From: a virus
DNA: 35,926 nt
Direction: 5' to 3' (one strand)
Virus record (IMG/VR): IMGVR_UViG_3300005253_003504
Span: 1 to 35,926 of that record
The position numbers and the translations under genes were made by a program. Shown here one piece after another: positions 2,237-33,683 of the stretch. Positions within the stretch are counted from its first letter, which is position 1; each line of letters starts with the position of its first letter. The notes below the pieces were generated by a model, which saw only the letters and a program-made list of their open reading frames with translations, did no database searches and was not told where the DNA came from.

Positions 2237-2237
2237 T

Positions 2238-4112: not shown

Positions 4113-4188
4113 TTTCAACCTCTGGTCTTGTAAAGAGAGTCTACTCCATTATCACACAAATTGGAAATTAACATAACTGGATATCTCA

Positions 4189-10145: not shown

Positions 10146-10147
10146 GG

Positions 10148-10741: not shown

Positions 10742-11334
10742 GCTAGACTCCTAAGGAAAATATCCATATCCTGAACTTGTTGAAAAATGATGAATAGAAA
10801 TACACCCAAACCAATAATTCCTGCTCCAAGAAGAATTCCCAAAATCACAAGAGGACTCTTAAAATTCGAAGGACCTAGTCCTATAGAATCAGCTGCATCT
10901 TGCCACGTAGCCTTCAACATCTTCTCATCAGTAATGTACTTCAAAGTTTTTGCTGTAATTACTGTTTCAATCTGTTCAGGATCAAAAGGCTCAGCGTTAT
11001 TTCGCATGAACAAAAGTGTTGGAACACTCTCTTGCATCCATACAGGAAATCCTTTTGGCCATTTAGACCAGAAAGACTTCTTCGGAACAATAAGATATTC
11101 TTCATCACCATCCCCGTGTTTGGATTTAATGATGCCAGACTCGTCGATTGGAAGTAACTCTTCTGTTGTTTGTCTGTTTGTTTCGATAAAATGTGCTACC
11201 ACTTTACCCTGGACCTTTCGACGGACCCAGAGCATAGTGAAGAACATCGTAACCGCAACAAAGCCGAGAGTAAATCCTCCGACAATTAATAGTGCCTGTC
11301 CTAGTGTGGACAGAATTGTTACGCCTTCATCCAT
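10738..11334 (-). CDS. membrane protein with two transmembrane helices
   Basis: 198 residues: helix about 10-37 (ending in the basic WVRRKVQGK), a cytoplasmic-type middle domain, and a second helix at about 160-186 (PLVILGILLGAGIIGLGVFLF). Start ATG with GGAAG six bases upstream. It sits between the 1523-residue protein and the ATPase and is likely part of the assembly machinery. Function unknown. Confidence 0.68.
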   Translation of the reverse strand: MDEGVTILSTLGQALLIVGGFTLGFVAVTMFFTMLWVRRKVQGKVVAHFIETNRQTTEELLPIDESGIIKSKHGDGDEEYLIVPKKSFWSKWPKGFPVWMQESVPTLLFMRNNAEPFDPEQIETVITAKTLKYITDEKMLKATWQDAADSIGLGPSNFKSPLVILGILLGAGIIGLGVFLFIIFQQVQDMDIFLRSLA

Positions 11335-11346
11335 GAGTATCTTCCA

Positions 11347-11718
11347 TTAATCCCTAAAAGGGTCGCCCTCGAAAATGTCTTCTTCTGGGGGCCTGTTATG
11401 TGATGCAGTAGTAGCTCCTAATTGCTTAAAGCGCTCTTTAGCACCGCTAAGGAGACCACCACTATTTTCCTCTAAATCGTCTACATCTCTGTGTGATATT
11501 CTTTTTAGAGCGTCGTCTGTAGGTACTCCATCCTCTCTAAGCTTCTGCTTTACTATACTAGTTGCTTTTGTACGATCTCTAGTAGGTAACCGATACCGTC
11601 TTGTTACCTCTAGATCGTCCTCTGCATTAGCTGCTTCTAATTCATCAAGAAACGGGCCTGCAAGAATTCTCTTGCCTTCTCGAGTTACCCCGAAGACCCA
11701 AAAATATGTATGTGCCAT
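11347..11718 (-). CDS. hypothetical basic protein of the virion module
   Basis: 123 soluble residues. The N-terminus (YFWVFGVTREGKRILAGPF) looks like a small beta fold; the rest is charged and helical. It begins just after the stop of the 1523-residue protein. No family recognised. Confidence 0.6.
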   Translation of the reverse strand: MAHTYFWVFGVTREGKRILAGPFLDELEAANAEDDLEVTRRYRLPTRDRTKATSIVKQKLREDGVPTDDALKRISHRDVDDLEENSGGLLSGAKERFKQLGATTASHNRPPEEDIFEGDPFRD

Positions 11719-11721
11719 GTT

Positions 11722-16293: not shown

Positions 16294-16374
16294 GGGCTTA
16301 TATAGAACTGGAGGGAGCACGGCCGCAATTGCTAAACCGTACTCCCTCTAATCCATCCTTAGCTTTTAAAGCTT

Positions 16375-16391
16375 ACACTCAATCGGAGTGT
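16375..16391 (-). terminator. small hairpin downstream of the putative major protein gene
   Basis: ACACTC and GAGTGT pair around a five-base loop, a few bases after the stop of the 67-residue protein. No U-tract follows directly, so it may only attenuate transcription into the giant gene or protect the 3' end of an abundant transcript. It is weak evidence for termination. Confidence 0.3.
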
Positions 16392-16398
16392 CGTTCGA

Positions 16399-16602
16399 TT
16401 AAACCGAGCGAAGCTTCGAAAGACCCAGGAAGAGACCCACGACGGTAATGATCGCGATCACGGGCGGAATCAGGGGCACGATAGCAAGCGACAGCGAAGA
16501 CCAGGTCGACGTGTCAAGTGAATCGAAAAGACCCTGAACCACTACGAAGGCGATCATGCCGAGGATACCTGCCACGAGGGCATTAATCAGCATGTCAATC
16601 AT
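16399..16602 (-). CDS. 67-residue two-transmembrane protein, candidate major virion protein
   Basis: Starting at the ATG at 16602, which has AAGGAG nine bases upstream, the product is MIDMLINALVAGILGM... with two hydrophobic helices (about 4-26 and 38-60), a short polar turn (DSLDTSTWSS) and a basic C-terminus (KLRSV). A longer frame to 16668 exists but lacks a ribosome site and would start at about the transcription start. The gene is about 53% GC by hand count against about 40% around it, has its own consensus promoter and starts the virion module: all signs of very high expression. Small two-helix proteins of this kind are the major capsid proteins of archaeal spindle-shaped viruses; tiny hydrophobic coat proteins are also used by filamentous phages. 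A holin or minor membrane protein is the alternative. Confidence 0.6.
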   Translation of the reverse strand: MIDMLINALVAGILGMIAFVVVQGLFDSLDTSTWSSLSLAIVPLIPPVIAIITVVGLFLGLSKLRSV

Positions 16603-16611
16603 GCGGTTTTT

Positions 16612-16617
16612 CTCCTT
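16612..16617 (-). promoter_or_regulatory. ribosome binding site of the two-helix protein
   Basis: AAGGAG on the minus strand, nine bases before the ATG at 16602. It decides between this start and upstream in-frame ATGs that lack such a site. Confidence 0.75.
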
Positions 16618-16667
16618 GGAGAGTAACTTCATCACAAAGGGATACTTATTTAGTTTCCCGTGTTCCA

Positions 16668-16697
16668 ATTATACTCTCCGGTCATCTGCTGTGACAA
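16668..16697 (-). promoter_or_regulatory. sigma-70-type promoter of the virion module
   Basis: On the minus strand TTGTCA (16692-16697) is followed by an 18-bp spacer and a perfect TATAAT (16668-16673). Transcription would start near 16661, leaving a leader of about 60 nt before the 67-residue protein. It lies in a 210-bp gene-free region between the polymerase stop (16813) and the late module. The rest of that gap holds an imperfect 8-bp hairpin (about 16720-16757) and nothing else I can name. Confidence 0.75.
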
Positions 16698-16812: not shown

Positions 16813-19386
16813 TCAAGCACTAACTAACTCTCTAAGAAGGACATTATCTTTTGTAGTACCTGGTCCCTTCCATTCCATTTTCTTTAGTTGACCCCACCTA
16901 TCTCCAGCATCAACATCGACATAGAAAGGTAATGAAGTATTCAAACTACGAGAAGGAACTTCTTGCAAAGTAGTCAAGAATGCGTCTAAAGTTTCAATAG
17001 AAATATTCTTTCTGATATTCCAAAGAACAGCATCATGAATAGGCCATAAAGGTCTTACCCAAGTACCGTACTTTGTCCATGCCTCATACATGGCATCTAA
17101 GTTACAATCATTACCTGTAGATTGCATTGGAAAGTTATATATCTGCTTTTCAATACTCTTCCAATTATCTCGAGTAATCAAATCATAACGTCTACGACGT
17201 CCTGAAGGTACTTCAAGATATCCTTGACTCTTAGTAATTTCTACAGTCTCTTCACGGTACTGCTTCAACCTAGGAATAGGTGCAAAGTAACTATCAACAA
17301 GCGCTTGTGCCTCTTTGATTGCTCGAGCACATTTCATATTTCGAGGACAACGAGCACAACTAGCATTAGAACAACCCAACTGACCTGCAATAGAAGGAAC
17401 ACCTCTTCCATAGTTAAGACCAAACACCAACATTTTAGCAATAACTCGTAATTCTTTTCTTCCCCCCTCATTAGCATCTAGAAACTTGGCTCCATACATT
17501 TCTTGAGCCATTGTTGCATGCCAGTCAGACTTAGGATCTGCAAGAACTTCTAACATATAAGGGTCTTGAGACAGAACTGCCTGAATTCGTAATTCCATAC
17601 CTGAGTAGTCAGCCTGAATAAAGAAACTATCCTCATCAGGAATAATGATTTCTTTTACAATCCCATATAAACTACCCTTACCTGCTTTGATTCTGTCTTC
17701 ATCTCTACTCTCACGAGGAAATACTAAAGGGTTGAAATTATTAGCAGATAATCTACCAGTAACAGTCCCAAATAATTTTAAGTCAGCATACCCAAAACCT
17801 CCACGATAAGACCTAGCAAGATTTACAAGATAAGTACCAACAACTTTCTGATACTGCTTGAACTCTATAAGCAACTCAACAAATTCGTGCTCAACAGTTC
17901 CTTCACCCGTAGACTCTAAAAGAGCTGCCATAACATCTTTATCAGTACTCAAGCCTTTTATCTTAGGCAGCTTGAAAACTTCGAATAGAGCTTTACGATT
18001 ATCAAGATAGCTATTAGGGTTATACAAAGGTATGCCCGTAATCTCTTGCATCTCTTTTACAAGAGCTTCTCTTTTTGCCGGCATCACCATCATAGCTTCT
18101 CGTAACTTTTCAAGATCCATCCTTGCCCCTACAGGAAGAACCTCTACAAACATTCGAACCCAATTAGCAATACGTTCGTGATAAAGTCTTGAAGGACCCT
18201 CATTCTCTGGCAAAGCCAATAACATATCAAAGATGTTGTCTAGCGCAAGAGTAGTAGTTGTATCAAATGTTTGATACCAGAATAAGGTACTAGGAGGTAC
18301 GAGAGTATAAGGATCTAACTTCTTCTTCAAGTACTTTTTAAGACCTATTTCCCAATTAGGAATGCCTAAAAAAGTGGAGGCATTTCTTTTTAGACTCTGA
18401 GCTCCAGCAACGTTTCTTTCATCCATAGAGTAGTGCTTCATAAGCACACAAGACTTCAACTTAACGTCAATGTCTTCACGTCTAAGAATACAAATATCGA
18501 AAGGGGCATTCCAAGCAATAACCCCTGTTTGAACCTCTAGAGCTTCTTTACAAGCTTGATAAACATCTTCGTACTCAAGAAGTCCATCAATTCCAGTATT
18601 ATGCATATCTTGGTATTCTTGAGACCAAGGAATTATAACACCGTAATCTTCTTCCCAAGCAAGACCTAACGAAGTAATTTTTGCCCCTGCAATATCTACT
18701 GAATCTGTTTCAAGGTCAACAGAAAGCTTTTCAGGAGGATTATCTCTTAACCAGTGAAAGAACTCAATAGCTTCTTCCCGAGTTTCATAGACAGTCATCC
18801 TACTAGCAACATGATCCCAATTCTTACCTTCAGAGAGCTGTTTTATTAACCAGATATTATCCTTGAAATCTCTGAAGTTATTAGAATTACTTCGCAAGTA
18901 ATATGCAGGGTGCGCAACAGGAACAACTTTCTTACCTATCTCATTAGGTACAGTAGTACCAGCGATGCTAAGAATACCGTCCCACCGACCAGTAAGAACA
19001 CCAAGGGCCTCATTACCCATTGGAACAAGCACTTCAGGGGTGTTAATATCAATGTGACCACTACATGCCTCTAAAGCCTCTCTTGGAGGTTTTTCTCCAT
19101 CTCGACTGTACCACTGGCAAAGAAGAGCGTTATCAACACCAACATCTTCTCGACTAATTTCATGCTCTTCGAGAGCAGAATTAAATAAGAGACCGGAGTC
19201 TCCTACTAAAGGTCTTCCAAGACGAACTTCTGTATTTGCGGGAGCTTGCCCTAAGAACAAGATCTTATAGGGCTTATCAGGAATTTCTGGCGGAACAAAC
19301 TTATTCCCTTGTAAAGGACATTCGTTACACTTAGACCCTGGGTATTTGAGCAATACTGTGCCCGCTTCCTGGGATACTGTAACCAC
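16813..19386 (-). CDS. family A DNA polymerase with N-terminal uracil-DNA-glycosylase-like domain
   Basis: 857 residues from the GTG at 19386, fixed by AAGGAGG five bases upstream. Residues about 17-170 resemble family 4 uracil-DNA glycosylases: C20/C23 and two further Cys (ALLCQW, EACSG) for an Fe-S cluster, GQAPANTE (46-53), PLVGDSG and HPAYYLR (159-165). A 3'-5' exonuclease follows with DLET (224), NAPFD (293-297) and YQTFD (371-375). The polymerase domain has motif A ADYSGMELR (592-600), motif B RVIAKMLVFGLNYG (647-660) and motif C PIHDA (782-786), with Ala where most Pol I enzymes have Glu. A Cys cluster (672, 677, 680, 686) is inserted after motif B. It is the likely replicative polymerase. 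Confidence 0.93.
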   Translation of the reverse strand: MVTVSQEAGTVLLKYPGSKCNECPLQGNKFVPPEIPDKPYKILFLGQAPANTEVRLGRPLVGDSGLLFNSALEEHEISREDVGVDNALLCQWYSRDGEKPPREALEACSGHIDINTPEVLVPMGNEALGVLTGRWDGILSIAGTTVPNEIGKKVVPVAHPAYYLRSNSNNFRDFKDNIWLIKQLSEGKNWDHVASRMTVYETREEAIEFFHWLRDNPPEKLSVDLETDSVDIAGAKITSLGLAWEEDYGVIIPWSQEYQDMHNTGIDGLLEYEDVYQACKEALEVQTGVIAWNAPFDICILRREDIDVKLKSCVLMKHYSMDERNVAGAQSLKRNASTFLGIPNWEIGLKKYLKKKLDPYTLVPPSTLFWYQTFDTTTTLALDNIFDMLLALPENEGPSRLYHERIANWVRMFVEVLPVGARMDLEKLREAMMVMPAKREALVKEMQEITGIPLYNPNSYLDNRKALFEVFKLPKIKGLSTDKDVMAALLESTGEGTVEHEFVELLIEFKQYQKVVGTYLVNLARSYRGGFGYADLKLFGTVTGRLSANNFNPLVFPRESRDEDRIKAGKGSLYGIVKEIIIPDEDSFFIQADYSGMELRIQAVLSQDPYMLEVLADPKSDWHATMAQEMYGAKFLDANEGGRKELRVIAKMLVFGLNYGRGVPSIAGQLGCSNASCARCPRNMKCARAIKEAQALVDSYFAPIPRLKQYREETVEITKSQGYLEVPSGRRRRYDLITRDNWKSIEKQIYNFPMQSTGNDCNLDAMYEAWTKYGTWVRPLWPIHDAVLWNIRKNISIETLDAFLTTLQEVPSRSLNTSLPFYVDVDAGDRWGQLKKMEWKGPGTTKDNVLLRELVSA

Positions 19387-19528
19387 TAAGTCCTCCTTCC
19401 GCGTCTTTGAAATCTGAAGATACAATGTACCAACCACAATTCATACATTTCAGTATCTTGCCTTCTTCGATACCATCGTATTCTCTCAAAGCCCCCGTTT
19501 TACACTTTTGACAGGCCCTAAAGTACAT
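19331..19528 (-). CDS. zinc-ribbon protein
   Basis: 65 residues beginning at the ATG at 19528, which overlaps the stop of the DpdA-like gene (TAATG). Two Cys pairs (CQKC and CMNC, about 20 residues apart) make a typical zinc ribbon. The last ~18 codons overlap the start of the polymerase gene by 56 bp, unusually long for this genome. Function unknown; perhaps nucleic-acid binding. Confidence 0.6.
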   Translation of the reverse strand: MYFRACQKCKTGALREYDGIEEGKILKCMNCGWYIVSSDFKDAEGGLSGYSIPGSGHSIAQIPRV

Positions 19529-20274
19529 TAGTGCGTGCCGTTCAAAAAGCTTACGCATCGTCGAATTTCATCCTGCACATCCGTTAAGATACCAGAATTG
19601 AATTCAACGACATCTGGTAGCTCTCGTAGGTTCTCAACCTTCGTTGCATAGATACCCATTAAAGCAGCCCGAGCAGGCAAACTAGAATCACAACCCCAAA
19701 TAGTTGAAATTTCTCTAGCCCAAGCTACCTCTTCTAAATTGTGTTGGACTCCTAAAAGATGGTAATTACCACTCCAGATCTTCTGAGCTGTTTCCCAAAG
19801 GGCTTTACGACCCCCTTCAAAAGTATCTTCAGCATATCTCCCAATACCAACAACAATATTAGTATTGTCACTAAAGAGATCTAACTGAGCTTCAAGACAA
19901 CCAAGCCACTCAACGAAAGTAGTTCCTTGAGGAACAATCATCAAAGTGAAAGATTCATCAAGCTCTTCCTCTCGAATGAACTCTGCAAAGTCCTGCGCAA
20001 GCTCGATAGTTCTCTTCTGGTCCCGAATTGAATCAGGAACTACAAGAGTAGCTTCTGGAAAATGATTCCAAGCTTCCATTAGATCTAGATAGCTCACCGA
20101 AGATCCTAACTCAATAACTCCATTATCAAGAATGATCTGATGACCCCTTTTTGAGGCCTCTTCATAATAAGCCCTTTTTACAGGATCTATTCTAATTTCA
20201 TGCGCAAGGATCAGATGAAAGTCTGAATACTTCGCGGGATCATATTGTACTGGGACTATAGGTGCGAACTTCAA
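19528..20274 (-). CDS. dpdA: DpdA2-like DNA-guanine transglycosylase
   Basis: 248 residues. The start is TTG, overlapping the previous stop (TTGA), with AGGAGA seven bases upstream. The sequence follows the tRNA-guanine transglycosylase barrel: ILDNGVIELG (48-57), VVPD (78-81), VPQGTT (114-119), VVGIGRY (141-147) and GCDSSLPARAA (194-204). The last echoes the DCVxPTRxxR nucleophile loop of TGT, with D196 as the expected catalytic residue. It matches the short phage DpdA group that swaps guanine in DNA for a 7-deazaguanine. With folE, queE and queC in the window, insertion of preQ0 or a derivative into viral DNA is the natural role, giving resistance to host restriction enzymes. Confidence 0.75.
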   Translation of the reverse strand: MKFAPIVPVQYDPAKYSDFHLILAHEIRIDPVKRAYYEEASKRGHQIILDNGVIELGSSVSYLDLMEAWNHFPEATLVVPDSIRDQKRTIELAQDFAEFIREEELDESFTLMIVPQGTTFVEWLGCLEAQLDLFSDNTNIVVGIGRYAEDTFEGGRKALWETAQKIWSGNYHLLGVQHNLEEVAWAREISTIWGCDSSLPARAALMGIYATKVENLRELPDVVEFNSGILTDVQDEIRRCVSFLNGTH

Positions 20275-20588
20275 GACGATGTCTCCTGTAGCACTTCAGG
20301 TGCTTTTTGTTTTAGTCGTACTCTCAACTCGAGAATCTTTTTAGCGGCGTTTCGAATATCTTTCTGTATTGCCTTCAAAGTACGTACTTCGGCTCTTAAG
20401 CCTCTCGATGTAACTTTGGCAATATGAACTTCCAAATGAATATCACTATCTGTAAGTGATATCAGAGTCTCCCAAGACGAATCTTGAAATAGAGGAACAA
20501 TTCTCAATCCTCCTGCTTCCAAATTCTCCTTGGATAAGAACATCCTCCTATTACGTTTGACTTCTTCGTAATCAGCAACTAGATCCAT
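20271..20588 (-). CDS. hypothetical helical protein
   Basis: 105 residues, mostly charged helices, with a coiled-coil-like C-terminal half (VRTLKAIQKDIRNAAKKIL, about 68-86). The ATG overlaps the nuclease stop (TAATG), and its own stop overlaps the dpdA-like start. Lying between a Cas4-like nuclease and the transglycosylase, it may work with either. No family recognised. Confidence 0.6.
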   Translation of the reverse strand: MDLVADYEEVKRNRRMFLSKENLEAGGLRIVPLFQDSSWETLISLTDSDIHLEVHIAKVTSRGLRAEVRTLKAIQKDIRNAAKKILELRVRLKQKAPEVLQETSS

Positions 20589-21322
20589 TAATTACTCCAA
20601 CATCTTTCTTTGAAAGGGCAAAGTTGGCATTGCTTACTTGTTTCCTCAAAATTTTGTTTTGGAAGTCTTCCTGCTGTCACATAAACCCAAAAATACTTCC
20701 AACGTGTAATAATACTTTCAAGGTATACAGAGTCTTTTTCAATAAGACATTCAAGCATAGCCCCATTATCTCGGTTCTTAAGAACCAAAAGCCACTGATC
20801 TATTCCTTCTTCAACAATAGCCTCAGAATGTAAATACATTTGTATCTGTCCCATATATGGAAAAGCAGAATCATGTAAAACAGTTTGATCATCTAAAATA
20901 AATCGGCCAGGAAGAACTTCTCTAGCTTTGGAAGCGTAATCGTTAAAAAGTTCATCTCCTGTAGACTTTATTTCAACACCATATGCCTTCTCATCTATTT
21001 CAACAAAAAGATCTGGATACCCCCTCCAAAATTGCTTTTCAAAACGATATCTCGTCCAAGCTTGTCCCTGACCAAAGTTCCAGATTTTAAATGAAGCCTG
21101 TTGAATTCTTCGAACAACCTCAGTTTCATGAAGATTACCTTCTGCAAGAACTACAGCCTTAAAATCTTCTATTCCAGGAACAAACTCTTCATCTTCAGGT
21201 GTTCTAAGAAACTGATAGCCAGCTCTACGGGTACATTGTTCAGCCCCCGACATCCTAAAAATCCCTTTAGACAAAGGACTCCAAGGAGTATGTTCACCTA
21301 CATAAAGTTTATCCACTATCAT
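20588..21322 (-). CDS. Cas4/RecB-like PD-(D/E)XK nuclease
   Basis: 244 residues. It carries the Cas4-type iron-sulfur arrangement: one Cys near the N-terminus (C30) and three at the C-terminus (C232, C235, C241). The RecB-like nuclease core includes GNLH (62-65), GYPDLFVE (101-108), GVEIKST (115-121) and QIQMYLH (159-165), giving D104, E117, K119 and Q161 as metal and catalytic residues. In phages, Cas4-like enzymes act in recombination and DNA end processing. No other cas gene or repeat array is present, so a CRISPR role is not supported. Confidence 0.85.
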   Translation of the reverse strand: MIVDKLYVGEHTPWSPLSKGIFRMSGAEQCTRRAGYQFLRTPEDEEFVPGIEDFKAVVLAEGNLHETEVVRRIQQASFKIWNFGQGQAWTRYRFEKQFWRGYPDLFVEIDEKAYGVEIKSTGDELFNDYASKAREVLPGRFILDDQTVLHDSAFPYMGQIQMYLHSEAIVEEGIDQWLLVLKNRDNGAMLECLIEKDSVYLESIITRWKYFWVYVTAGRLPKQNFEETSKQCQLCPFKERCWSN

Positions 21323-21536
21323 CTTTTACTTCCATTTGATCCAGAATTGCAAGAAGACCATATCCAACACCTAAATTACCGTAAACGGTAGCAAGTGTAA
21401 TAGTCTCATGCAATTCCTTCTTCTCTTCATTACTAAGATCCTCACGTCTAGACAACGCAGTAACCTTAGAAGATATACGCCGAGCTCTTTCAGTAAAGAA
21501 CTCAGCTGATTCACGAAAACTATTTTCTGAACTCAT
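21309..21536 (-). CDS. hypothetical small helical protein
   Basis: 75 residues, predicted largely alpha-helical and charged (FFTERARRISSKVTALSRRE). It starts with an ATGA overlap on the folE stop and runs 14 bp into the nuclease gene. The translational coupling supports it as real. Function unknown. Confidence 0.6.
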   Translation of the reverse strand: MSSENSFRESAEFFTERARRISSKVTALSRREDLSNEEKKELHETITLATVYGNLGVGYGLLAILDQMEVKDDSG

Positions 21537-22297
21537 GAGCGATTTAGCAGAGTCAAGAACTCCTGTTTGGCATGAGGATTTGATAGAAAAATCCCTCTAA
21601 CCGCAGAAGTTGTAAAACTCTGCCCTTCTGATTTGACACCCCTCATGGCGGTACAAGAATGGGTAGCCTCAATAACTACCATCGAACCTGAAGGCTTTAA
21701 AACCTTCTGCATTGCATTTGCAAGAGTTTCAGTAACTCGTTCTTGAATTGTAATTCCCTTCTGGGCTGCTTGAACCATCCTAGTTAGCTTAGATAAGCCA
21801 ACCGTCAACTCGTGCGGGATGTAACCAACAGCAACATTCCCAAACCAAGGAAGTAAATGATGCTCACAGAATGAGCTAATAGGAATTCCTTTCACAATTA
21901 ACATCTGATCGTACGACTCTTCTATTATCATTTCTGACAAAGCATCCTCGACCAGTATACCAGGAGTAAATTCGTTTACCCAAGCTTTGGCAACACGATC
22001 AGGCGTTCCTTTTAACCCCTCTTCTTTAGAATCTCTTCCAAGTGCTTGAATAATCAGACTAGCTGCCTCTTTAAGCATCTCTTCAGGACTTCTACCCTCA
22101 GTATAGAGTATAGTCATCACTCGCTCTTTTGCAGCCTGTCTTTCTTCGTCAGAAACCTCTTTTGGATCCTTACGAAACATCTCAGCTGCAAAAGCTAAAT
22201 AGGGATCTACGTTTGCAACCTTAAGCCTAGTTACCAAACGAGGAACTCCTGGCTCATTTGTAGACGTCTTTCGAGGTGCTGAGTGCTGACTAGTCAT
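21533..22297 (-). CDS. folE: GTP cyclohydrolase I
   Basis: 254 residues. It converts GTP to 7,8-dihydroneopterin triphosphate, the first step of both folate and 7-deazaguanine synthesis. Zinc ligands are visible as FCEHH (C144, H147) and HSC (C215). Other signatures are GLSKLTRMV (167-175), QERVTETLA (185-193) and HSCTAMRG. The first ~55 residues form a longer N-terminal extension than the E. coli enzyme. The ATG has AGGAG six bases upstream and its own promoter. In this setting it most likely feeds preQ0 production for DNA modification. Confidence 0.93.
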   Translation of the reverse strand: MTSQHSAPRKTSTNEPGVPRLVTRLKVANVDPYLAFAAEMFRKDPKEVSDEERQAAKERVMTILYTEGRSPEEMLKEAASLIIQALGRDSKEEGLKGTPDRVAKAWVNEFTPGILVEDALSEMIIEESYDQMLIVKGIPISSFCEHHLLPWFGNVAVGYIPHELTVGLSKLTRMVQAAQKGITIQERVTETLANAMQKVLKPSGSMVVIEATHSCTAMRGVKSEGQSFTTSAVRGIFLSNPHAKQEFLTLLNRS

Positions 22298-22314
22298 TTT
22301 TAGCTCCTAATACA

Positions 22315-22343
22315 ATTATATGTTATACCGAGTTTTTTATCAC
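22315..22343 (-). promoter_or_regulatory. sigma-70-type promoter upstream of folE
   Basis: Minus-strand GTGATA (22338-22343, four of six consensus bases), a 17-bp spacer and a perfect TATAAT (22315-22320). The start of transcription would be near 22308, about 10 nt before the folE ATG and close to its ribosome site, so the leader would be very short. Confidence 0.6.
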
Positions 22344-22348
22344 CCGGT
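22327..22348 (-). terminator. hairpin at the end of the upstream zinc-protein gene
   Basis: ACCGGGT and ACTCGGT form a 7-bp stem (one wobble pair) around an 8-base loop, covering the stop of the preceding gene and the -35 element of the folE promoter. There is no U-tract after it on the minus strand. It could attenuate read-through or act as an operator-like inverted repeat. Confidence 0.4.
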
Positions 22349-22528
22349 TACTTTGCTACGTGTTTCCATTTGTCTCATGAGGTGGTACATGTTGGGGTTT
22401 TTACATCCGAAACATCCTTCACACTTATCACGTTGTAATTCTTCTCCACGCTTAGGGATAGCACGTCCATGCCTTACACAACCTTCAGGATGTCCACAAC
22501 GAGTACAATACCTCTCACCTGCAATCAT
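22340..22528 (-). CDS. small Cys-rich zinc-binding protein
   Basis: 62 residues with CTRC, C17, and a CEGCFGC run (about 36-42), plus several His, indicating two metal sites. The ATG overlaps the previous stop (ATGA) and has GGGAG seven bases upstream. Function unknown. Confidence 0.65.
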   Translation of the reverse strand: MIAGERYCTRCGHPEGCVRHGRAIPKRGEELQRDKCEGCFGCKNPNMYHLMRQMETRSKVTG

Positions 22529-22839
22529 TTTTTATCTCCCACCTTTAGATGTTCTTCTTTCTCTACTCCACAGAGCATACACCTTCCAATAATATCAGGA
22601 GTAAATTGCGGTTGATAATTATGTTCTTCTATCATTAAGGCACTACTTCTGTATTTTTCTTTATCCTGCTTTTTTACTTCACAGATATCCTCTCCTATCA
22701 ACGCCTCGGAGTGAATAACAAAAACTGGTTTTCCTAAACTGCGTGCATAGTCCATCAGTTCATCCAGATATTCATTTTCATGAACTGGACATCCTGCCTT
22801 AATTCCATCAACACATTTGCAATCATTTGTAGTCATCAT
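22525..22839 (-). CDS. hypothetical protein with N- and C-terminal zinc ligands
   Basis: 104 residues. The N-terminus has C7, C9 and C17 with a following PVH; the C-terminus has CMLCG (about 87-91). The middle has an alternating hydrophobic segment (GKPVFVIHSEALIG) that may be a small alpha/beta core. Its start overlaps the previous stop. No family recognised. Confidence 0.62.
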   Translation of the reverse strand: MMTTNDCKCVDGIKAGCPVHENEYLDELMDYARSLGKPVFVIHSEALIGEDICEVKKQDKEKYRSSALMIEEHNYQPQFTPDIIGRCMLCGVEKEEHLKVGDKK

Positions 22840-23033
22840 TAAGGTGCTACTCCCGTTTCATGACAAATACAACCACAATCGTAAGTACCCCACAACTCTC
22901 CTTGAGCCATAGAAATACCTAAAAGGCTACAAGCATAATGTCTACCTTCATAACATTCCTCAAAAGGAAGTTTATTAGGATTGAACTCAGCACTTTTCAG
23001 AGCCCTACTATACTCCTTAAATGTCTTGATCAT
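22839..23033 (-). CDS. small Cys/His protein
   Basis: 64 residues, with ligands concentrated in ECYEGRHYACS and CGCICHE. ATG directly after the ribonucleotide reductase stop, with GGAG about ten bases upstream. Function unknown; one of a run of three small metal-binding proteins here. Confidence 0.6.
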   Translation of the reverse strand: MIKTFKEYSRALKSAEFNPNKLPFEECYEGRHYACSLLGISMAQGELWGTYDCGCICHETGVAP

Positions 23034-25121
23034 CTAACAGCGACTCCATCCACACGTGAGATTAGTACATTTCAAACACCCTTCTTCACGCGCTACTTTC
23101 GATTCACATTCAGGACAAATAAGTCCATGTGCTATCTCACTCCCTGTAGGAGTCAAGAAAGTCATTTCTAACCATCTTGCCATATAGTCAATTATCGAAT
23201 TAGCATTTGGTATCAAAGGATTGTCAGTAAACCCTTTAGGTTCAAAAGTTTTACCCTTAAGTCTCCCAACAAGAAGCTCTAAAGGAGTTCCATGCTGTAA
23301 TGCAAGAGATAACGAAATCATGAAGGAATCTAAAAGTCCATCAATTGTACCCCCTCTTGCAGGAGTAGTTACAAAAACTTCTCCAGGCATCTTTGTATCA
23401 GGATACAATCCTACAGTTATATAAACTGGAATATCTGCAATCTCAAAATGGTGAGTAATCGCTTCTCGCGTTTTTGGAAGCTTGATCCGATTCGTAAACT
23501 CGGGTTCTTCACGATAGCTTTCTTTAGGTTGACTATCCAAAACTTGAGTCTCCCGACTACCATTTCGATAGACAGTAATACCCTTACATCCTTCTTCCCA
23601 AGCTAACATAAATGCATTGAAAACATCATCAGAAGTAGCAGATTCTGGAAGATTAATAGTCTTACTAACTGCTAAGTCAGTATACCTCTGAAAAGCGGCT
23701 TGATGACGAACTTGTATCCTAGCACTAATCTCATGAGCCGTCTGAGGAACGAAAGATGACTTTCTCGCCTCTAACTCCTCAAGAACAGGAATAACTTCTT
23801 GAAGTTTCGTCCCATCCCCCATAGTACGCTCCCAAGTAGTAGCATAATGAGGCTCACACCCAGAAGAAGTCCCAGCAATAATCGAAATAGTACCTGTCGG
23901 AGCGATACAAGTAACTGTTGCATTACGTCTCTTCCAAGGAAGTGAACCTTCATCATGAATTTGACGAAGAGCAGGCGCGAAACCTTTCTCTTTTCCGAGT
24001 AGTTCACTTTCTTCAACCGCAGCAGTCTGAATTACTTCCATAACTTCTGCTGCAAGATCAATAGCTCTATCACTTTCATAAGGAATTTCCAAAAGTGCGA
24101 GCATATCTGCCCAACCCATAACTCCAAGACCCAATTTTCGAGTCTTTTTCGCGATTTCCTCAATAGCAGGATCGGGGAATATGTTATTGTCAAGAACTTC
24201 ATCGAGATAACGTATTGCTATCTTAGCCGTCTTACGAATCCCATCAAGATCTATATCTTGATCGCGAACAAACTTGCTAAGATTGATAGATCCGAGATTG
24301 CAAGGCTCATTATCGAGCAAAGGAACTTCTCCACACGGATTAGTTCCTGTCAATTCTCCTAACCAAGGAGTGGGATTATCTTTTTCCGCAGTAGTAACGA
24401 AATAACAACCAGGATCTCCTGTCTTCCAAGCAGAATGTGCCATCTCTACAAATAACTTTCGCTCTTCAGAATCTGGTTCATCTCGAACTTGCATCATAAA
24501 GTCATCTGTTAGCGACACACTTATGTTGAAAGTACTCAAAGACTCAGGATCCACATCCTTCACATGAATAAATTCACGAATATCCGGATGTGTAGCTGGT
24601 AAAATGCCCATTTGAGCACCATCTCTCTTACCAGCTTGAGTAATCATCATCGAAACTGATTGGTAATGATGCAAAACGCCAGAGTGGATCCCTTTCGAAG
24701 GTCTACCAACAGGACCCATAGCTCCACCATGTGTTGTAGATATTGGAGTCCGAAAAGGACGAAGATTTCCAAGGTAATAACCTACTCCTCCTCCCCACTT
24801 TTGAACTATAGCTGACTTACGTGCGACGTCCATAATCGATTCCATATTATCCTGGACATCAAACTTGAAACATGCAGAAAGAGTGCCCTGACCAGTACCA
24901 AGGTTAAAGAGGGTTGGACTATTAGGAAGGAAACAAAGCGACTCAAGAAGTTCTCGGTATTCCGGATTACCCATAGAGATACGATCAAAAAATTGTTCTT
25001 CAGTCTCGTGGTTAATTTGACAGTCTATGCAAGTCGTAAATTGCTCTCCCTTCCAGAAGTACCTTTTACAAAGAATAGTTCGCGCATTCTCATTAAATAC
25101 AGACTGGCTTACCGTAGTCAA
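23034..25121 (-). CDS. nrdJ: adenosylcobalamin-dependent (class II) ribonucleotide reductase
   Basis: 695 residues reducing ribonucleotides to deoxyribonucleotides with a B12-generated radical. Key sites: C84 (SACFKF), NPCGE at 261-265 carrying the radical Cys, and a partner Cys in TVTCIAPTGTIS. SSGCEPHYA after that is typical of class II enzymes. The C-terminus ends in a two-pair zinc ribbon (CPEC ... CLKC ... C ... C), which supplies the redox-active thiols in this class. The start is TTG, with AGAGGGAAG five bases before it and a TTGA overlap on the previous stop. It needs host thioredoxin and cobalamin. Works with ThyX next to it to supply dNTPs. Confidence 0.94.
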   Translation of the reverse strand: MTTVSQSVFNENARTILCKRYFWKGEQFTTCIDCQINHETEEQFFDRISMGNPEYRELLESLCFLPNSPTLFNLGTGQGTLSACFKFDVQDNMESIMDVARKSAIVQKWGGGVGYYLGNLRPFRTPISTTHGGAMGPVGRPSKGIHSGVLHHYQSVSMMITQAGKRDGAQMGILPATHPDIREFIHVKDVDPESLSTFNISVSLTDDFMMQVRDEPDSEERKLFVEMAHSAWKTGDPGCYFVTTAEKDNPTPWLGELTGTNPCGEVPLLDNEPCNLGSINLSKFVRDQDIDLDGIRKTAKIAIRYLDEVLDNNIFPDPAIEEIAKKTRKLGLGVMGWADMLALLEIPYESDRAIDLAAEVMEVIQTAAVEESELLGKEKGFAPALRQIHDEGSLPWKRRNATVTCIAPTGTISIIAGTSSGCEPHYATTWERTMGDGTKLQEVIPVLEELEARKSSFVPQTAHEISARIQVRHQAAFQRYTDLAVSKTINLPESATSDDVFNAFMLAWEEGCKGITVYRNGSRETQVLDSQPKESYREEPEFTNRIKLPKTREAITHHFEIADIPVYITVGLYPDTKMPGEVFVTTPARGGTIDGLLDSFMISLSLALQHGTPLELLVGRLKGKTFEPKGFTDNPLIPNANSIIDYMARWLEMTFLTPTGSEIAHGLICPECESKVAREEGCLKCTNLTCGWSRC

Positions 25122-25282
25122 TCTAACTTCCCTCTCACAATAGGAGTCACCACAGCTTTTATACCTACATTCTTAAGATTACACCATACATTACATAAAG
25201 TACAAAAGGCACCTTCCTCTTGAATAGAATGGTAATTTACAAGATGATTACACTCCACACAATAAGCATTAGAAAAAGTCAA
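25118..25282 (-). CDS. small zinc-ribbon protein
   Basis: 54 residues starting at TTG (25282), with GGGAGA eight bases upstream; the start overlaps the thyX stop and its stop overlaps the nrdJ start, both by TTGA. Ligands are C8, C11, C27 and C30 with an extra C34. It fills the 157-bp space between two dNTP genes. Function unknown; a regulatory or nucleic-acid-binding role is a guess. Confidence 0.65.
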   Translation of the reverse strand: MTFSNAYCVECNHLVNYHSIQEEGAFCTLCNVWCNLKNVGIKAVVTPIVRGKLD

Positions 25283-26148
25283 TCTAGCTTTCTCCCTGCA
25301 TTCTCATTAGGAAACTGCTTCCGGTATTGTCTCCAACCAAAAAGGTTTCCAAACCGTGCATCTGTCTCCTGTGCTTGAGCCATATGCTCAAATGGAGACC
25401 AATGCCCCGCTGTCGAAAGTTGTATGTACAAACGTAAATCAGAATCTATATCCTGAGTACCATCATGATTCAAATACGAAACACGAGCACATCGTGCTAC
25501 AGATAATTTCTGACGAACAGCAATACCTAAAGCTTCTCTCTCTTTCTTAGTTACAAATGGAAGATGCCAATAACCCGGCTCTACTACCTTATACTCCTCC
25601 TTTATATAAAGTTCCCACATCATACGAGCTATTTTCTGTATTTCGGGTTGTGCAGGAAAAGAGGGATTAAACCCCCTAGCAGCAAGAATACTAGAGTCAT
25701 CAGGTTGAGGGTCACAATCAGTACGAAGAACAAAAAAGTTATCAAACTCTGTAGCCGTAATAATTACAGTTATAAACATCCAGGGTTCAAGCAGTCTATT
25801 TGCAATCTGCTTATGCATTCCAAGCTTTGCTAACTTCCTAGAATATCCCAACATCATATCACGAGCTTCAAGCCACTCTCGTTCTGCAGAAGTAATATTA
25901 TCAATTTCTACAACTGCTTGCATTCCTTTTTGATTCTTTCCCCACCAGACAGGAATGACAGGATCTTCTTCAATACTTGCAATCATCCGAGCATTTGGAA
26001 TTGCTCTAGATGAAGAAGAGTTTCGTGAGAACATGCGATGAGTCATCAACTCTGCATGTACGAATCTAGGATAGCTAACTACAAATGTTGTGAGACGCTC
26101 TTCAGTACTAGCACAAAAACTATCTTCTATAATCTCCGCTTTATACAT
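25279..26148 (-). CDS. thyX: flavin-dependent thymidylate synthase
   Basis: 289 residues making dTMP from dUMP with methylene-tetrahydrofolate, FAD and NADPH. The ThyX signature appears as HRMFSRNSSSSR (37-48). The first Arg of the usual RHRxxSxNxxSxR is Thr here. STAGHWSPFEHMAQ and GNLFGWRQYRKQF near the C-terminus match the folate and substrate regions. It is longer than common bacterial ThyX (about 220-250). The ATG is three bases after the macro-domain stop, with AAGGA seven bases upstream. Paired with nrdJ for DNA precursor supply. Confidence 0.9.
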   Translation of the reverse strand: MYKAEIIEDSFCASTEERLTTFVVSYPRFVHAELMTHRMFSRNSSSSRAIPNARMIASIEEDPVIPVWWGKNQKGMQAVVEIDNITSAEREWLEARDMMLGYSRKLAKLGMHKQIANRLLEPWMFITVIITATEFDNFFVLRTDCDPQPDDSSILAARGFNPSFPAQPEIQKIARMMWELYIKEEYKVVEPGYWHLPFVTKKEREALGIAVRQKLSVARCARVSYLNHDGTQDIDSDLRLYIQLSTAGHWSPFEHMAQAQETDARFGNLFGWRQYRKQFPNENAGRKLD

Positions 26149-26150
26149 GA

Positions 26151-26612
26151 TTATCCTTCCACTAGAAATATATTTGAAGCAACTAACTTATCTTTAACTA
26201 CCTGAAGAACATTTACCCAATTTAAACGACCTTTACCTGTTCCTACTTTCGGGATATAAAAAGCACAATCAGGATGAACAATAGCTATAGAATTAAGCTC
26301 TTCACAACTCCTAGCTATTAAACTTAACTCTGAACCTTCTCTCCAGTCTCTCTTAGTAGGAAAGGAAACTATTCCCCAGGCCTTAAAGAAAAATACATGA
26401 TTTCCAGAACGAGCAATCTTTGACCCAATTATGAGATCCAAACCTGGAAATTTATGTATCGCCTGTTTAGCAAGACCTGCTCCCATAACTGAAGCACCAT
26501 TAACTTTGAGAATACTATTTGTAGGTATTACTACAATTGAAGTAGAATATAACTCAGAAGTGGAAGCTGCAATCTCCCAAATATCTCCTTCTAATATATC
26601 ATTAAATAACAC
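26151..26612 (-). CDS. macro-domain protein
   Basis: 153 residues forming a single macro domain, which binds ADP-ribose. The N-terminal strand and loop read IVVIPTNSILKVNGASVMGA (about 27-46), the canonical ADP-ribose site with Asn and GAGLA. A later loop IPKVGTGKGRLNW (about 119-131) fits the second phosphate-binding loop. The start is GTG with GAGG eight bases upstream. In a phage it may hydrolyse ADP-ribose-1''-phosphate, remove ADP-ribose marks or bind NAD-derived signals of host defence; which of these applies cannot be told. Confidence 0.85.
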   Translation of the reverse strand: MLFNDILEGDIWEIAASTSELYSTSIVVIPTNSILKVNGASVMGAGLAKQAIHKFPGLDLIIGSKIARSGNHVFFFKAWGIVSFPTKRDWREGSELSLIARSCEELNSIAIVHPDCAFYIPKVGTGKGRLNWVNVLQVVKDKLVASNIFLVEG

Positions 26613-26640
26613 TAGACACCCCTCTTGTCACCCTTATATA

Positions 26641-26862
26641 CTATTTCATAAACCTTCCACATCCCACAACACGAATGTCCCCATTTGGAAACTCTTCGTA
26701 AAAACAACTGGAACAATGTCTCTCAGGGCAAGATTTACAATCCCATGAATAATCAACAAAAGACCATAATCCCGGCTTATCAATCTCTGTAATTATTTCT
26801 CCTGTAGCATCACATACTAAACGAATCCCATAAACAATACCTGAAGGATGTCTACTGGACAC
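26641..26862 (-). CDS. hypothetical Cys-rich protein
   Basis: 73 residues from a GTG at 26862 with AAGAG six bases upstream; a longer frame to 26937 would overlap the upstream gene by 86 bp. A cluster CKSCPERHCSSC looks like a metal-binding loop, followed by CGRFMK at the end. The N-terminal half is beta-like. No family recognised. Confidence 0.55.
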   Translation of the reverse strand: MSSRHPSGIVYGIRLVCDATGEIITEIDKPGLWSFVDYSWDCKSCPERHCSSCFYEEFPNGDIRVVGCGRFMK

Positions 26863-27217
26863 TACGAACTCTTCTTCTCCGCTGACCTCTGAGACATCTA
26901 ATACAATAGAACGATAGCCAGCGCTTACGCTTCCCAATTACTACTCTAGGATACTTTCCACAATCACCACACAAACTATCAACTATCCTCCAAGGCCATA
27001 CTACTTTATATCTAGCTCTCCCCTTAAGATTACGTTTAGTACGACACGATTCACATATACCATTCTCACACGACTTTAGACAACGACTACATAATCCCGC
27101 CTTACGGTATCTTCGTCGAGCAGCTCTAGCCTGGCAAGTAGAACTACAAAACCTTTTAGGTGTACCTCCAAAGGCAATTCTCTTTTGTACAGAATTAGGA
27201 CATTCCTCACACTGCAC
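26852..27217 (-). CDS. multi-zinc-finger basic protein
   Basis: 121 residues with about seven Cys pairs: CEEC, CSSTC, CSRC, CESC, CGDC, CIRC and a single C between. Basic runs (ARAARRRYRKAG, GQRRRRVRSV) flank them. The first unit resembles small finger proteins found near HNH enzymes in phages, but no HNH motif is present. It is likely nucleic-acid binding. Confidence 0.65.
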   Translation of the reverse strand: MQCEECPNSVQKRIAFGGTPKRFCSSTCQARAARRRYRKAGLCSRCLKSCENGICESCRTKRNLKGRARYKVVWPWRIVDSLCGDCGKYPRVVIGKRKRWLSFYCIRCLRGQRRRRVRSVQ

Positions 27218-27219
27218 AT

Positions 27220-27924
27220 TTATACGCCTCTTTTATCTCCCCACAGAAGTACGTGTAACCTAGTTGTAAAGTTCCACCCATACTCAAGAACTTTGTCTGC
27301 AATTATTTGTGCGTGATAATTAATAGTCCTAACTTTCGTACCCTCAGGCATAATAAAAACCCTGTTATGAGGGATTTCTATTTGAGCAACTATCCAAGCT
27401 ACTTCTTCCAAATCAGATTCTTGCTGGACTACAAACTTAAAGTTTGCACCTAAATCTTTAAAGACTTGCAAAACTTCCGGAACGAATCTCTTTTCTTCGG
27501 AATTACCTGAATGTGCAAGTTTTGGAGAAACATTCCATTGAATTACAAACCTAGGATGTTGCATGTCTATGGTTGGAGCTAAAGTACCTGCAGTCTCAAT
27601 CTCGAAAGTGTAATCCCGAATTTGGAGTAACTCATCAAAAAGAGGAGGGAGCTTTGCCTGTTGAATCATAGGCTCACCACCGGTAATAACCAAACGATCA
27701 GTCTTCATCAACCCAATAACCCGTACTATGTATGCCATCTGCATTCTCGTAGCTTCTTTTTTAACGTCAAAGTTTTTCCAATCCCAAGTATATTTAGTAT
27801 CACACCAAACACACGCGAGATTACATGTAGCCAAGCGAAGAAAAGCAGCTCGACGTCCTAAAGAAGGACCCTCACCTTGAAAGGTTGGCCCAAAAATTTC
27901 CGATACAAGAATTTTACTCGTCAT
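27220..27924 (-). CDS. queE: 7-carboxy-7-deazaguanine synthase
   Basis: 234 residues; a radical-SAM enzyme that rearranges 6-carboxy-tetrahydropterin into the 7-deazaguanine ring. The N-terminal IFGPTFQGEGPSLGR is diagnostic. The [4Fe-4S]-binding CNLACVWC follows (C34, C38, C41, with CX3CX2C spacing), then CDTKYTWDW and VITGGEPMIQQ. The ATG at 27924 is preferred over an adjacent TTG. It needs the QueD product as substrate, and QueD is not seen in this window. Confidence 0.93.
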   Translation of the reverse strand: MTSKILVSEIFGPTFQGEGPSLGRRAAFLRLATCNLACVWCDTKYTWDWKNFDVKKEATRMQMAYIVRVIGLMKTDRLVITGGEPMIQQAKLPPLFDELLQIRDYTFEIETAGTLAPTIDMQHPRFVIQWNVSPKLAHSGNSEEKRFVPEVLQVFKDLGANFKFVVQQESDLEEVAWIVAQIEIPHNRVFIMPEGTKVRTINYHAQIIADKVLEYGWNFTTRLHVLLWGDKRGV

Positions 27925-28060
27925 CAATCAAAATCCATTTTTTAGGTTCGATACAATTAACTCCCGGACACGTTGACATAAAAGAATGTGATTCATAATG
28001 CCAAAAAGATCCACATCCTATTAGTTCAATTTTAAAAACAGCCTTACAATTAATAATCAC
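27914..28060 (-). CDS. small protein with Cys/His ligands
   Basis: 48 residues from a GTG that shares one base with the HPRT stop, running 11 bp into queE. It contains C5, GCGSFWHYESH and CPGVNC, a plausible metal site. It fills the whole gap between the two genes. The ribosome site is weak. Confidence 0.5.
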   Translation of the reverse strand: MIINCKAVFKIELIGCGSFWHYESHSFMSTCPGVNCIEPKKWILIDDE

Positions 28061-28569
28061 TATTCCACTACCAATACATCTGTCAGATTACGAAGTAGTC
28101 CAGACGAATCCATTCCATATCCAATCAAGAACTCATTAGAAGGAACTTCAAACGCGACATAGTCTACTTTTTCTTCTGTCAGTCCTTTATCTGCGAAAAC
28201 TGCAATTTCCAAAGAAGCAGGCTCAAGACCCTCAAATACCTCACGAATCTTTTTAATAGTTGCTCCAGTATCTAAAATATCCTCAACAACTAAGACATGT
28301 TTACCTTTTACACCAATATTAGGTAGCATATCTATCTTGACTTGACCTGAAGACTTAGTAGAGCTGCCATAACTCGACAACTGCATAAAACCAACCTCTA
28401 CACTAATTGCACGTATCTCTCGCGTCAAATCACATGTAAAGAATGCAGCCCCATTAAGAACTCCAATCACCACAAGAGCTTCATGGGATTCTAAGGTAGA
28501 GTATTTTTGTTCTACCTCAAAACCCACTCTTGTAATAGTCTCACGAATCTGCTGACTAGATAGCAACAC
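28060..28569 (-). CDS. hpt: hypoxanthine-guanine phosphoribosyltransferase
   Basis: About 169 residues. It joins hypoxanthine or guanine to PRPP. The PRPP loop is VLVVEDILDTGATIKKI, preceded by VVIGVLNGAAFF and followed by GYGMDSSGLLRNL near the C-terminus, as in HPRT/Hpt proteins. The long N-terminal part of the open frame overlaps queC and is not part of the family, so I start it at a GTG at 28569; the exact start is uncertain. Within a 7-deazaguanine cluster it could refill the GTP pool drawn on by FolE. Confidence 0.85.
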   Translation of the reverse strand: MLLSSQQIRETITRVGFEVEQKYSTLESHEALVVIGVLNGAAFFTCDLTREIRAISVEVGFMQLSSYGSSTKSSGQVKIDMLPNIGVKGKHVLVVEDILDTGATIKKIREVFEGLEPASLEIAVFADKGLTEEKVDYVAFEVPSNEFLIGYGMDSSGLLRNLTDVLVVE

Positions 28570-29239
28570 TCTCGTATTGCGTAGGATCGACAACTCCGGC
28601 GATTCCAAAGGCTTCGATTCTGCTGACACAGGTTGGGCAGGTACCACAGTGAAGTTCTCCTCCTTCGTAGCAAGACCATGTCTTTTCAAAAGGAACCTTA
28701 AGAAGATCCCCCAAAGCAGCAATATCTGCCTTAGAAAACCACATAAATGGTGTACGAAGACGCGTTTTAAAGTAGGAACCGACATATATAGCATTTGCCA
28801 TTGCGCCAATAAATTCTGGGGTGCAGTCGGGATATGCCCAATTATGAGCATCGTCTGCATGCGCACCAAAATAAATGTAATCAGCACCGTCGATAAGGGC
28901 TATTGATGAAGCAACAGCTAAGAAGTTCATATTCCGTTGTGGAACATAGGTCTTTGAAGGACCTTTTGCCTCTGCAAGTTCTTCATAACTCATTTGAGGC
29001 ATTTCGACACCATCATCAACTAAGGATGAACTAGCGCCCTGAAAGATCTTTGGCAGTTCTAACACCTCAACTCCACAGTTGAAATGTTTCGCCAACTCTA
29101 TCGCGTAATCTACTTCGCGAACATGCTTCTGACCGTACGAAAGCGAAAGGCCTCTAACGGTTTCATTTTCACTCTTTGCAAGAGCGAGACAAGTAGCAGA
29201 ATCCATTCCGCCGGATAAAAGGACAAGTGCTTTAGTCAA
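28556..29239 (-). CDS. queC: 7-cyano-7-deazaguanine (preQ0) synthase
   Basis: 227 residues; converts carboxy-deazaguanine to preQ0 using ATP and ammonia. The PP-loop SGGMDS is at 9-14, LSYGQKH and YVPQRNMNFL follow, and the zinc site is four Cys near the C-terminus (SCYEGGELHCGTCPTCVSR). The start is TTG at 29239 with GGAG nine bases upstream, inside the end of the previous gene (8-bp overlap). The last enzyme needed to make the free base that a DpdA-type enzyme could insert. Confidence 0.94.
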   Translation of the reverse strand: MTKALVLLSGGMDSATCLALAKSENETVRGLSLSYGQKHVREVDYAIELAKHFNCGVEVLELPKIFQGASSSLVDDGVEMPQMSYEELAEAKGPSKTYVPQRNMNFLAVASSIALIDGADYIYFGAHADDAHNWAYPDCTPEFIGAMANAIYVGSYFKTRLRTPFMWFSKADIAALGDLLKVPFEKTWSCYEGGELHCGTCPTCVSRIEAFGIAGVVDPTQYESVAI

Positions 29240-32039: not shown

Positions 32040-33683
32040 TTACCTTACAAAAGTATACAATTCATAAAGCATTTGTCTCGAAGTCATAGGAGCTGTCCTA
32101 ATCTGTTCTTCCAAAAAATCACCCACACGATATTTTTTATTGCCAATAAAACTTCTAGTTACAGAACCCAACTTAATAATATCCTGCTGCTCTTTTTCAA
32201 CTCCTAAGTGAACCCACATTTCATTCTCACCAAACCGATCATAAGCACTCTTAAGGGTATGAAAATAAGTTAAGGGTGTTTCAATTGTATATTTATCTCT
32301 TTGTTCCCAAGCGCGATCTCTAAGATCCGGATTCTTCCAAGGACATGTCTTACGAATATCGTTGAAAAGAGTAAAAGTTCCTTCTCCCTTAAGAGCCATA
32401 GCTCCCATATGTTTAAAACTAGATGCAGCAGATAACTTATCCTCAGAAGTAACTCCATCTACAAACTCTCCAACAACGGATGCACCCATAGATTTCTCAT
32501 AGAGTTCCATTCTCATCATGGAAGTAACCTGTGAAGCAAATACAGGGTTATATAGATTACTTGCCTGAGTATGTCCTTCTCCTGTTATAGGATCCCTAAT
32601 AACTACATACTGTCCAATAGTCTTACCCCAAAGAGCAGCCATAACCAATTTAATATAGTCACCAATCTCAGGATTCTTAATCCTCATAGCATAAAGTTTC
32701 TTTACCAACCGTCTAAAAGGATAAAAACTTTTAGATATAGCTACACCCCAATAGCCATTATGAATTTTCTCAATTGTTCCTACCTCAGGATGTCTCTGTA
32801 GAAACTCAATCTCTGGCATATTAAGCCAAACATTACTAATTCTACCTACAGGATACCAAGAACCCCCCTTATAACCAACAGGAACAGCTATTGGTCCCCT
32901 AACTAATCTTTCATTCAGATGAATATCTGCCATAACAGCAGCATACGAAGCATTCTCAACAGGTTTATCACTTTCAATCCACTCCATATGTAGCGTCGAA
33001 ACTAACTTCGCACAAAGAGCAGGATAAGCAGATATAATATCATAGTCATACACCTCCGATGTGCCGAATATGATCCCTTCCATTCTAGCAGCTCTAAATG
33101 ACTGTAAGAAGGCATCCATAACCTCCCATTCACCCCTAGGCTGATATCTAGAACCCGGTAACTGAGCAGCTACATCCTGTATTGAACTCCCAACAGAACG
33201 AAACTTCATACTGAAAAATTCATTACTCTCAAATACAACATTAGCAAGGTCTAAAGCCAACTCAACTTGCTTTGCCGTCTTTGCTCCCGGGTATAGCGAA
33301 TAGATATTAGAAAAGTGTCCCCACCGGTTACCTTCTCGTACTGAAAAGTGACCGCCCCGCCCTCTAAGTTCAATTGTAATGTTTTTATACCATGCTATTC
33401 CAGCAGTGGCAAGAAATTTTAGAGATACAGGAGGGAGATATTTAAAGATCTTATCAAAATGTCCCTGGTACTCATTACTAACATAAACTTCCTTACCTAA
33501 AAGCCACTGAAAGAACTGTCCAGGTCCAATAGTTGAACCATCAACTAACAAAATGTAGTAGCTAGGACCGTCTTCTACAATCTCTACTCCAACAAATTCA
33601 ACGTCATCATACTTAGGTCGCCTCCCAGGTACAATCACATTCGGCAATTCAGCAGCTTCTAAGACCAAAACTTCTTTATCCAA
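32040..33683 (-). CDS. divergent family B DNA polymerase-like protein
   Basis: 547 residues from a TTG with no clear ribosome site. The palm is recognisable: motif A YDYDIISAYP (212-221, catalytic D215), motif B KLVMAALWG (345-353) and a motif C candidate EFVDGVTSE (406-414). An FRAARME run (196-202) precedes motif A, where protein-primed and related viral polymerases have YxGGRxE. The N-terminal half has an ExoII-like NEYQGHFD (70-77), but ExoI is unclear. Motif C reads DGV where DTD is expected, so the second metal-binding Asp seems absent. At 547 residues it is close to short protein-primed polymerases. It may act in priming or repair, or may have lost catalysis. No terminal protein is visible. 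Confidence 0.68.
   Translation of the reverse strand: MDKEVLVLEAAELPNVIVPGRRPKYDDVEFVGVEIVEDGPSYYILLVDGSTIGPGQFFQWLLGKEVYVSNEYQGHFDKIFKYLPPVSLKFLATAGIAWYKNITIELRGRGGHFSVREGNRWGHFSNIYSLYPGAKTAKQVELALDLANVVFESNEFFSMKFRSVGSSIQDVAAQLPGSRYQPRGEWEVMDAFLQSFRAARMEGIIFGTSEVYDYDIISAYPALCAKLVSTLHMEWIESDKPVENASYAAVMADIHLNERLVRGPIAVPVGYKGGSWYPVGRISNVWLNMPEIEFLQRHPEVGTIEKIHNGYWGVAISKSFYPFRRLVKKLYAMRIKNPEIGDYIKLVMAALWGKTIGQYVVIRDPITGEGHTQASNLYNPVFASQVTSMMRMELYEKSMGASVVGEFVDGVTSEDKLSAASSFKHMGAMALKGEGTFTLFNDIRKTCPWKNPDLRDRAWEQRDKYTIETPLTYFHTLKSAYDRFGENEMWVHLGVEKEQQDIIKLGSVTRSFIGNKKYRVGDFLEEQIRTAPMTSRQMLYELYTFVR

Follow-up and report, generated by a model that had tools for sequence, protein, structure and literature searches.

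A 7-deazaguanine gene block and its absent queD

The IMG/VR virus record IMGVR_UViG_3300005253_003504 is a linear fragment of 35,926 bases, analysed here over its whole length (the window), with its main genes on the minus strand. An original prediction, made from the letters alone, assigned to it a 7-deazaguanine DNA modification set comprising FolE, QueE, QueC and a DpdA2-like enzyme, scattered among nucleotide genes and relying on a QueD from the host. The pathway genes and an inserting enzyme with the fold of tRNA-guanine transglycosylase (TGT) are retained in the present analysis, whereas the DpdA2 membership, the borrowed QueD and the scattering are not. FolE (GTP cyclohydrolase I; 21533..22297, minus strand; PF01227, 4.4e-55) carries CEHH and HSC zinc motifs, QueE (7-carboxy-7-deazaguanine synthase; 27220..27927, minus strand; phrog_2076, 4.7e-57) has the radical-SAM motif CNLACVWC, and QueC (7-cyano-7-deazaguanine synthase; 28556..29239, minus strand; PF06508, 4.4e-59) has an SGGMDS P-loop and a CX7CX2CX2C zinc motif. 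All three are thus confirmed by family profiles. QueC consists of one domain, with no Gat fusion, and its TTG start at 29239 agrees with that of its homologues. QueF, also reported as not seen, is indeed not recognised, since the sole match to its profile in the window is a false one on FolE, below the cut-off.

Dozens of related viral contigs carry a module QueC-QueD-QueE-FolE-DpdA-PolA with little change in gene order, and the DpdA-PolA adjacency is seen in most of the related loci. The window keeps this usual order, with insertions, rather than a scattered arrangement. The profile E-values, together with gene order kept across many loci, indicate that the gene set did not arise by chance. 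The window's own lineage comprises four contigs (the window and those labelled L006, L123 and G052), which share the block PolB-g208-Sak4-SSB-QueC-QueE-FolE-Cas4-g105-DpdA-PolA, with minor detection gaps in L006, where PolB is partial. The transglycosylases of these four contigs group together in a single clade (support 0.997).

QueD is absent from the 36-kb record, as had been noted, and from inside the block of all four lineage members. Its own profile detects it in 42 of the 46 non-redundant loci that have QueC, QueE and DpdA; the remaining four are the window, L006, L081 and L082, the last of which has QueD by the Pfam profile. G052, a contig of 78,758 bases with the same block, encodes QueD at 70381-70794 (PF01242, 6e-30), about 51 kb past QueC. 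The window extends 16.8 kb beyond PolA and ends at glycosyltransferase genes whose matches in G052 lie near 49-50 kb. Because the G052 queD lies in a region outside the 36-kb window, truncation most likely explains why the window is without the gene, judging from this comparison of sequences. Since the window is a linear fragment, the absence by itself says little, and L006 and L123, as fragments of 19 and 24 kb, cannot decide the question. That the virus truly lacks QueD and that its host provides 6-carboxytetrahydropterin or QueD itself would accord with the empty blocks of all four contigs. However, the distant queD of G052, a window end well before the region matching that gene, and the presence of queD in almost every other locus of the family make such dependence on the host unlikely. 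More generally, comparison with a longer relative can account for a pathway gene that seems to be "missing" from a metagenomic fragment.

A small transglycosylase and its relatives

The presumed inserting enzyme is a protein of 248 residues (19528..20274, minus strand) matched by no profile in Pfam or NCBIfam and only weakly by two unannotated PHROGs. As a single sequence it retrieved nothing from the PDB with phmmer and nothing from the viral contigs; an alignment query of the latter yielded 311 relatives, and 80 of them were retained. Its AlphaFold2 model (pLDDT 95.5) is a TGT-type (beta/alpha)8 barrel. The top Foldseek rows are TGT structures and DpdA 7ui4, and VIA-align superposes the model on TGT with Z 16.4 and 3.4 A over 222 residues. 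A profile search of PDB sequences with the family gave one significant match, again the DNA-guanine transglycosylase 7ui4 (4e-5), with which the HLLG and IDS motifs align. D50, N51, E55, H172, G175 and D196 are invariant in an alignment of 66 viral-contig sequences. D196 pairs with the Asp in the IDSTTP motif of 7ui4, and the pairing of D50 with the catalytic Asp relies on a weak alignment to the phage 9g enzyme. Structure comparison, the check proposed with the original prediction, therefore places the protein inside the TGT fold and not outside it; on the strength of a confident predicted fold, it is a member of the TGT/DpdA superfamily. The bacterial DpdA (7ui4), a DNA preQ0 (7-cyano-7-deazaguanine) insertase, has a similar fold and an aligned catalytic region, at 16% identity and with about 410 residues against 248. 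The bacterial enzyme is part of a dpd island with partner proteins.

Within this superfamily, the family profile matches proteins of phages CP220, immuto, MaInes, Youna2 and BSP7 with E-values of 1.5e-39 to 4.7e-57, and phiST at 7e-38. It finds nothing at E <= 10 in the records of nt-1 (DpdA2; YP_008125322), 9g (DpdA1) and HVTV-1, and hhalign gives a probability of 99.7% for CP220, 2% for nt-1 and 0.2% for 9g. The nt-1 and 9g enzymes are also TGT-superfamily proteins encoded beside preQ0 genes, with weak local motif similarity to the window enzyme, but they are longer (464 and 317 residues). The proposed likeness to DpdA2 is thus replaced: by sequence, the 248-residue enzyme belongs to the CP220/immuto/phiST transglycosylase family. 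It probably corresponds to the DpdA3 subfamily described by Cui et al. in 2023, which is reportedly tied to complete guanine replacement and which CP220 and phiST would fit. In the DNA of CP220 and CPt10, 100% of deoxyguanosine (dG) is reported to be replaced by 2'-deoxy-7-amido-7-deazaguanosine (dADG) (PMC8306585). Hutinet et al. (PMC6884629) grouped the Campylobacter phages with phages that have no DpdA, and they raised a route by way of a modified dGTP.

Campylobacter phage CP220, Flavobacterium phage immuto, Cellulophaga phage phiST, Brevundimonas phage MaInes, Weizmannia phage Youna2 and Bacillus phage BSP7 share the transglycosylase family with the window and, in most cases, its 7-deazaguanine pathway. 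Nonetheless, they differ from it in several respects. In MaInes, Youna2, immuto and BSP7, queD lies near the other pathway genes; phiST lacks the QueC that the window has; and the six carry a phosphoribosyltransferase (PRT) resembling xanthine PRT (XPRT), or none, where the window has a hypoxanthine-guanine PRT (HGPRT). Moreover, all six are tailed phages, whereas the window has no recognised tailed-phage hallmark gene, which suggests that 7-deazaguanine modification extends to a lineage of viruses in which no tailed-phage genes are recognisable. As a separate observation, the transglycosylase-family match in Campylobacter phage CC_R7 (L142; PQ092953, 103444-104124) contains one in-frame TAA.

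Guanine phosphoribosyltransferases and the route of substitution

The HGPRT gene (28060..28569, minus strand; TIGR01203, 1.7e-41 on 28060-28560) was missed in the first reading; its likely GTG start at 28569 overlaps the end of queC. It sits between queC and queE, the slot that usually holds queD in other members of the cluster. Its score of 141.7 bits falls just under the equivalog level (curated cut-off 150), and it carries the phosphoribosyl pyrophosphate (PRPP) motif VVEDILDTGAT and the signature of 6-oxopurine PRTs. All PRTs classified near the enzyme family are of the 6-oxopurine type and of two kinds, namely HGPRT (the window and L059) and XPRT-like (MaInes, immuto, L023, L035, L090 and L093). 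A PRT-domain match occurs in 7 of the 43 related viral records searched, and the gene is therefore accessory.

The MaInes XPRT is matched in 22 of 50,697 phage records. Eighteen of these are phages of the Brevundimonas, immuto, phiST and Campylobacter groups, which have the transglycosylase family, as checked through representatives; since records within groups are near-identical, they amount to four lineages and not to 18 independent cases. The other four are unannotated, and one of them (MT835497) lacks the transglycosylase family. Guanine-type PRTs are thus present in MaInes, immuto, phiST and CP220, and they adjoin FolE, QueE or QueC in MaInes, immuto, L035, BUCT-ZZ01 and the window. Synechococcus phage BUCT-ZZ01 has a xanthine-guanine PRT between QueE and QueD/FolE and is without the 248-residue transglycosylase family. 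HGPRT-like matches in the phage collection were set aside, as they resemble cellular or prophage DNA with no visible link to preQ0 genes, although they were not inspected singly. A limited literature search found no description of a link between PRTs and 7-deazaguanine modification. HGPRT is a new candidate partner of the 7-deazaguanine module, and the recurrence of guanine-type PRTs in other 7-deazaguanine phages suggests, as the simplest reading, that the enzyme recycles guanine released by base exchange.

Taken together, the enzyme families, the transglycosylase fold, the gene order, the distant queD of G052 and the recurrence of PRTs make it likely that this locus represents the principal part of a 7-deazaguanine DNA modification module. 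FolE, QueD, QueE and QueC would convert GTP to preQ0, with QueD predicted on the unsequenced rest of the genome. Close to replication by PolA, or after it, the small TGT-fold enzyme would replace guanines of the viral DNA by preQ0 or a closely related base, for instance its amide. HGPRT would salvage the guanine released by this exchange as GMP, which in turn may refill the GTP and dGTP pools that feed FolE and DNA synthesis. The 2'-deoxynucleoside of preQ0 (dPreQ0) remains a fair prediction for the base in the window virus, and dADG, as reported for CP220, is an equal candidate.

Several points weigh against this reading. HGPRT is absent from G052, the closest long relative, and so is accessory and not core. 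No queD is seen in the window virus itself, and a lineage of four members cannot prove that it has one; furthermore, the identity of the modified base is a prediction from the genes. The 248-residue protein has a net charge of -19, which is unusual for an enzyme acting on DNA. It should be noted that 9g DpdA, nt-1 DpdA2 and E. coli TGT are likewise negatively charged; global charge was accordingly discarded as a test of DNA binding, since it does not discriminate.

For phages in which all guanine is replaced, it is debated whether the base is swapped within completed DNA or supplied to it as a modified dGTP. By the second route, preQ0 would be placed on a ribonucleotide or deoxyribonucleotide, either by HGPRT, with PRPP as the donor, or through exchange on a free guanine nucleotide catalysed by the TGT-fold enzyme; phosphorylation, reduction by the viral ribonucleotide reductase and polymerisation by the adjacent PolA would follow and lead to complete replacement. 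Such a route would suit the full replacement reported for CP220, which has the same enzyme family (PMC8306585), and a modified-dGTP path has been proposed for Campylobacter phages (PMC6884629). The strongly acidic enzyme, the PolA adjacency and the nearby guanine PRTs and ribonucleotide reductase are also in its favour. In addition, several loci (L003 at 19396, L005 at 9441, L022 at 9459, L061 at 9123, L002 at 8768, L078 at 9453, L085 at 10789 and L096 at 10801) have a gene from one of two unrelated nucleotide-kinase-like families that overlaps or directly adjoins the transglycosylase gene, arranged as if translationally coupled with it. However, the window has no recognised kinase, and the substrates of characterised relatives with the TGT fold are polynucleotides. 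Catalysis by HGPRT involves an Asp that acts on N7 of the purine, an atom that 7-deazaguanines lack, and preQ0 should therefore be a poor substrate for it. On balance, the nucleotide route appears unlikely, and exchange within DNA is preferred. A role in boosting preQ0 or queuosine for host tRNA is very improbable: FolE, QueE and QueC are indeed shared with tRNA queuosine synthesis, but in dozens of viruses the block beside PolA holds a transglycosylase of the modified-DNA-phage family, and annotation of the window recognised no tRNA-specific queuosine gene.

A transglycosylase family repeatedly paired with guanine PRTs, kinase-like genes and PolA provides concrete proteins that bear on this debate. 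We put forward, tentatively and with less confidence than the module itself, that a rare, uncharacterised and probably non-tailed lineage replaces DNA guanine with a 7-deazaguanine and recycles the displaced guanine through its own PRT, and that high-level substitution in viruses generally involves guanine PRTs as a hitherto unrecognised partner.

Nature of the virus and neighbouring genes

Profiles recognise no terminase, portal, capsid or tail family in the window beyond weak fibre-like matches, and no terminal repeats were found in it. A virion-like module is common to the window and G052 and includes a Zot-type ATPase (PF05707, 4e-9; 1e-72 between the two contigs), g123, g198, g197, g84, g367 and g194; it possibly marks an undescribed lineage of non-tailed viruses. 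Large membrane-anchored proteins and glycosyltransferases also lie in this module (window 1-16668; G052 26000-49738). Directly after PolA, a small protein with two hydrophobic helices (window 16402-16602) is a candidate major capsid protein. Two tandem copies of 67 residues occur in L006 (15208-15411 and 15500-15703) and in G052 (about 26.0-26.5 kb); none has a sequence match to any known capsid protein.

The virus has two DNA polymerases. UDG-PolA (16813..19437, minus strand; PF00476, 3e-47; PF03167, 1e-17) is encoded directly downstream of the transglycosylase, and a divergent PolB of the protein-primed type lies at 32040..33683 (minus strand; phrog_11768, 2e-11). The best match of the latter in the phage collection is the protein-primed PolB (pPolB) of an archaeal virus (1e-7). 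Thaspiviridae have an 81-residue two-helix capsid protein and a pPolB (PMC8491892), and spindle-shaped archaeal viruses resemble the window in outline through these two features, although no homology of capsid proteins was found. A search of 84,980 genomes for a host with the PolB and Zot proteins of the lineage returned no relative.

Between FolE and the transglycosylase lie a Cas4-like exonuclease (20588..21322, minus strand; phrog_1990, 2e-12), conserved in L006, L123 and G052, and a 105-residue protein (20271..20588, minus strand) with homologues at the same place in L123 and G052. The large subunit of ribonucleotide reductase with a TSCPD domain (23034..25121, minus strand; PF02867, 2.7e-95; PF12637) was not found in G052; it is accompanied by the thymidylate synthase ThyX (25279..26148, minus strand; PF02511, 5e-12). 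Also inside the module, positions 26151-26612 match a DarG-like DNA ADP-ribosyl glycohydrolase (NF048014, 4e-12, well under the cut-off), whose product possibly counters DNA ADP-ribosylation.

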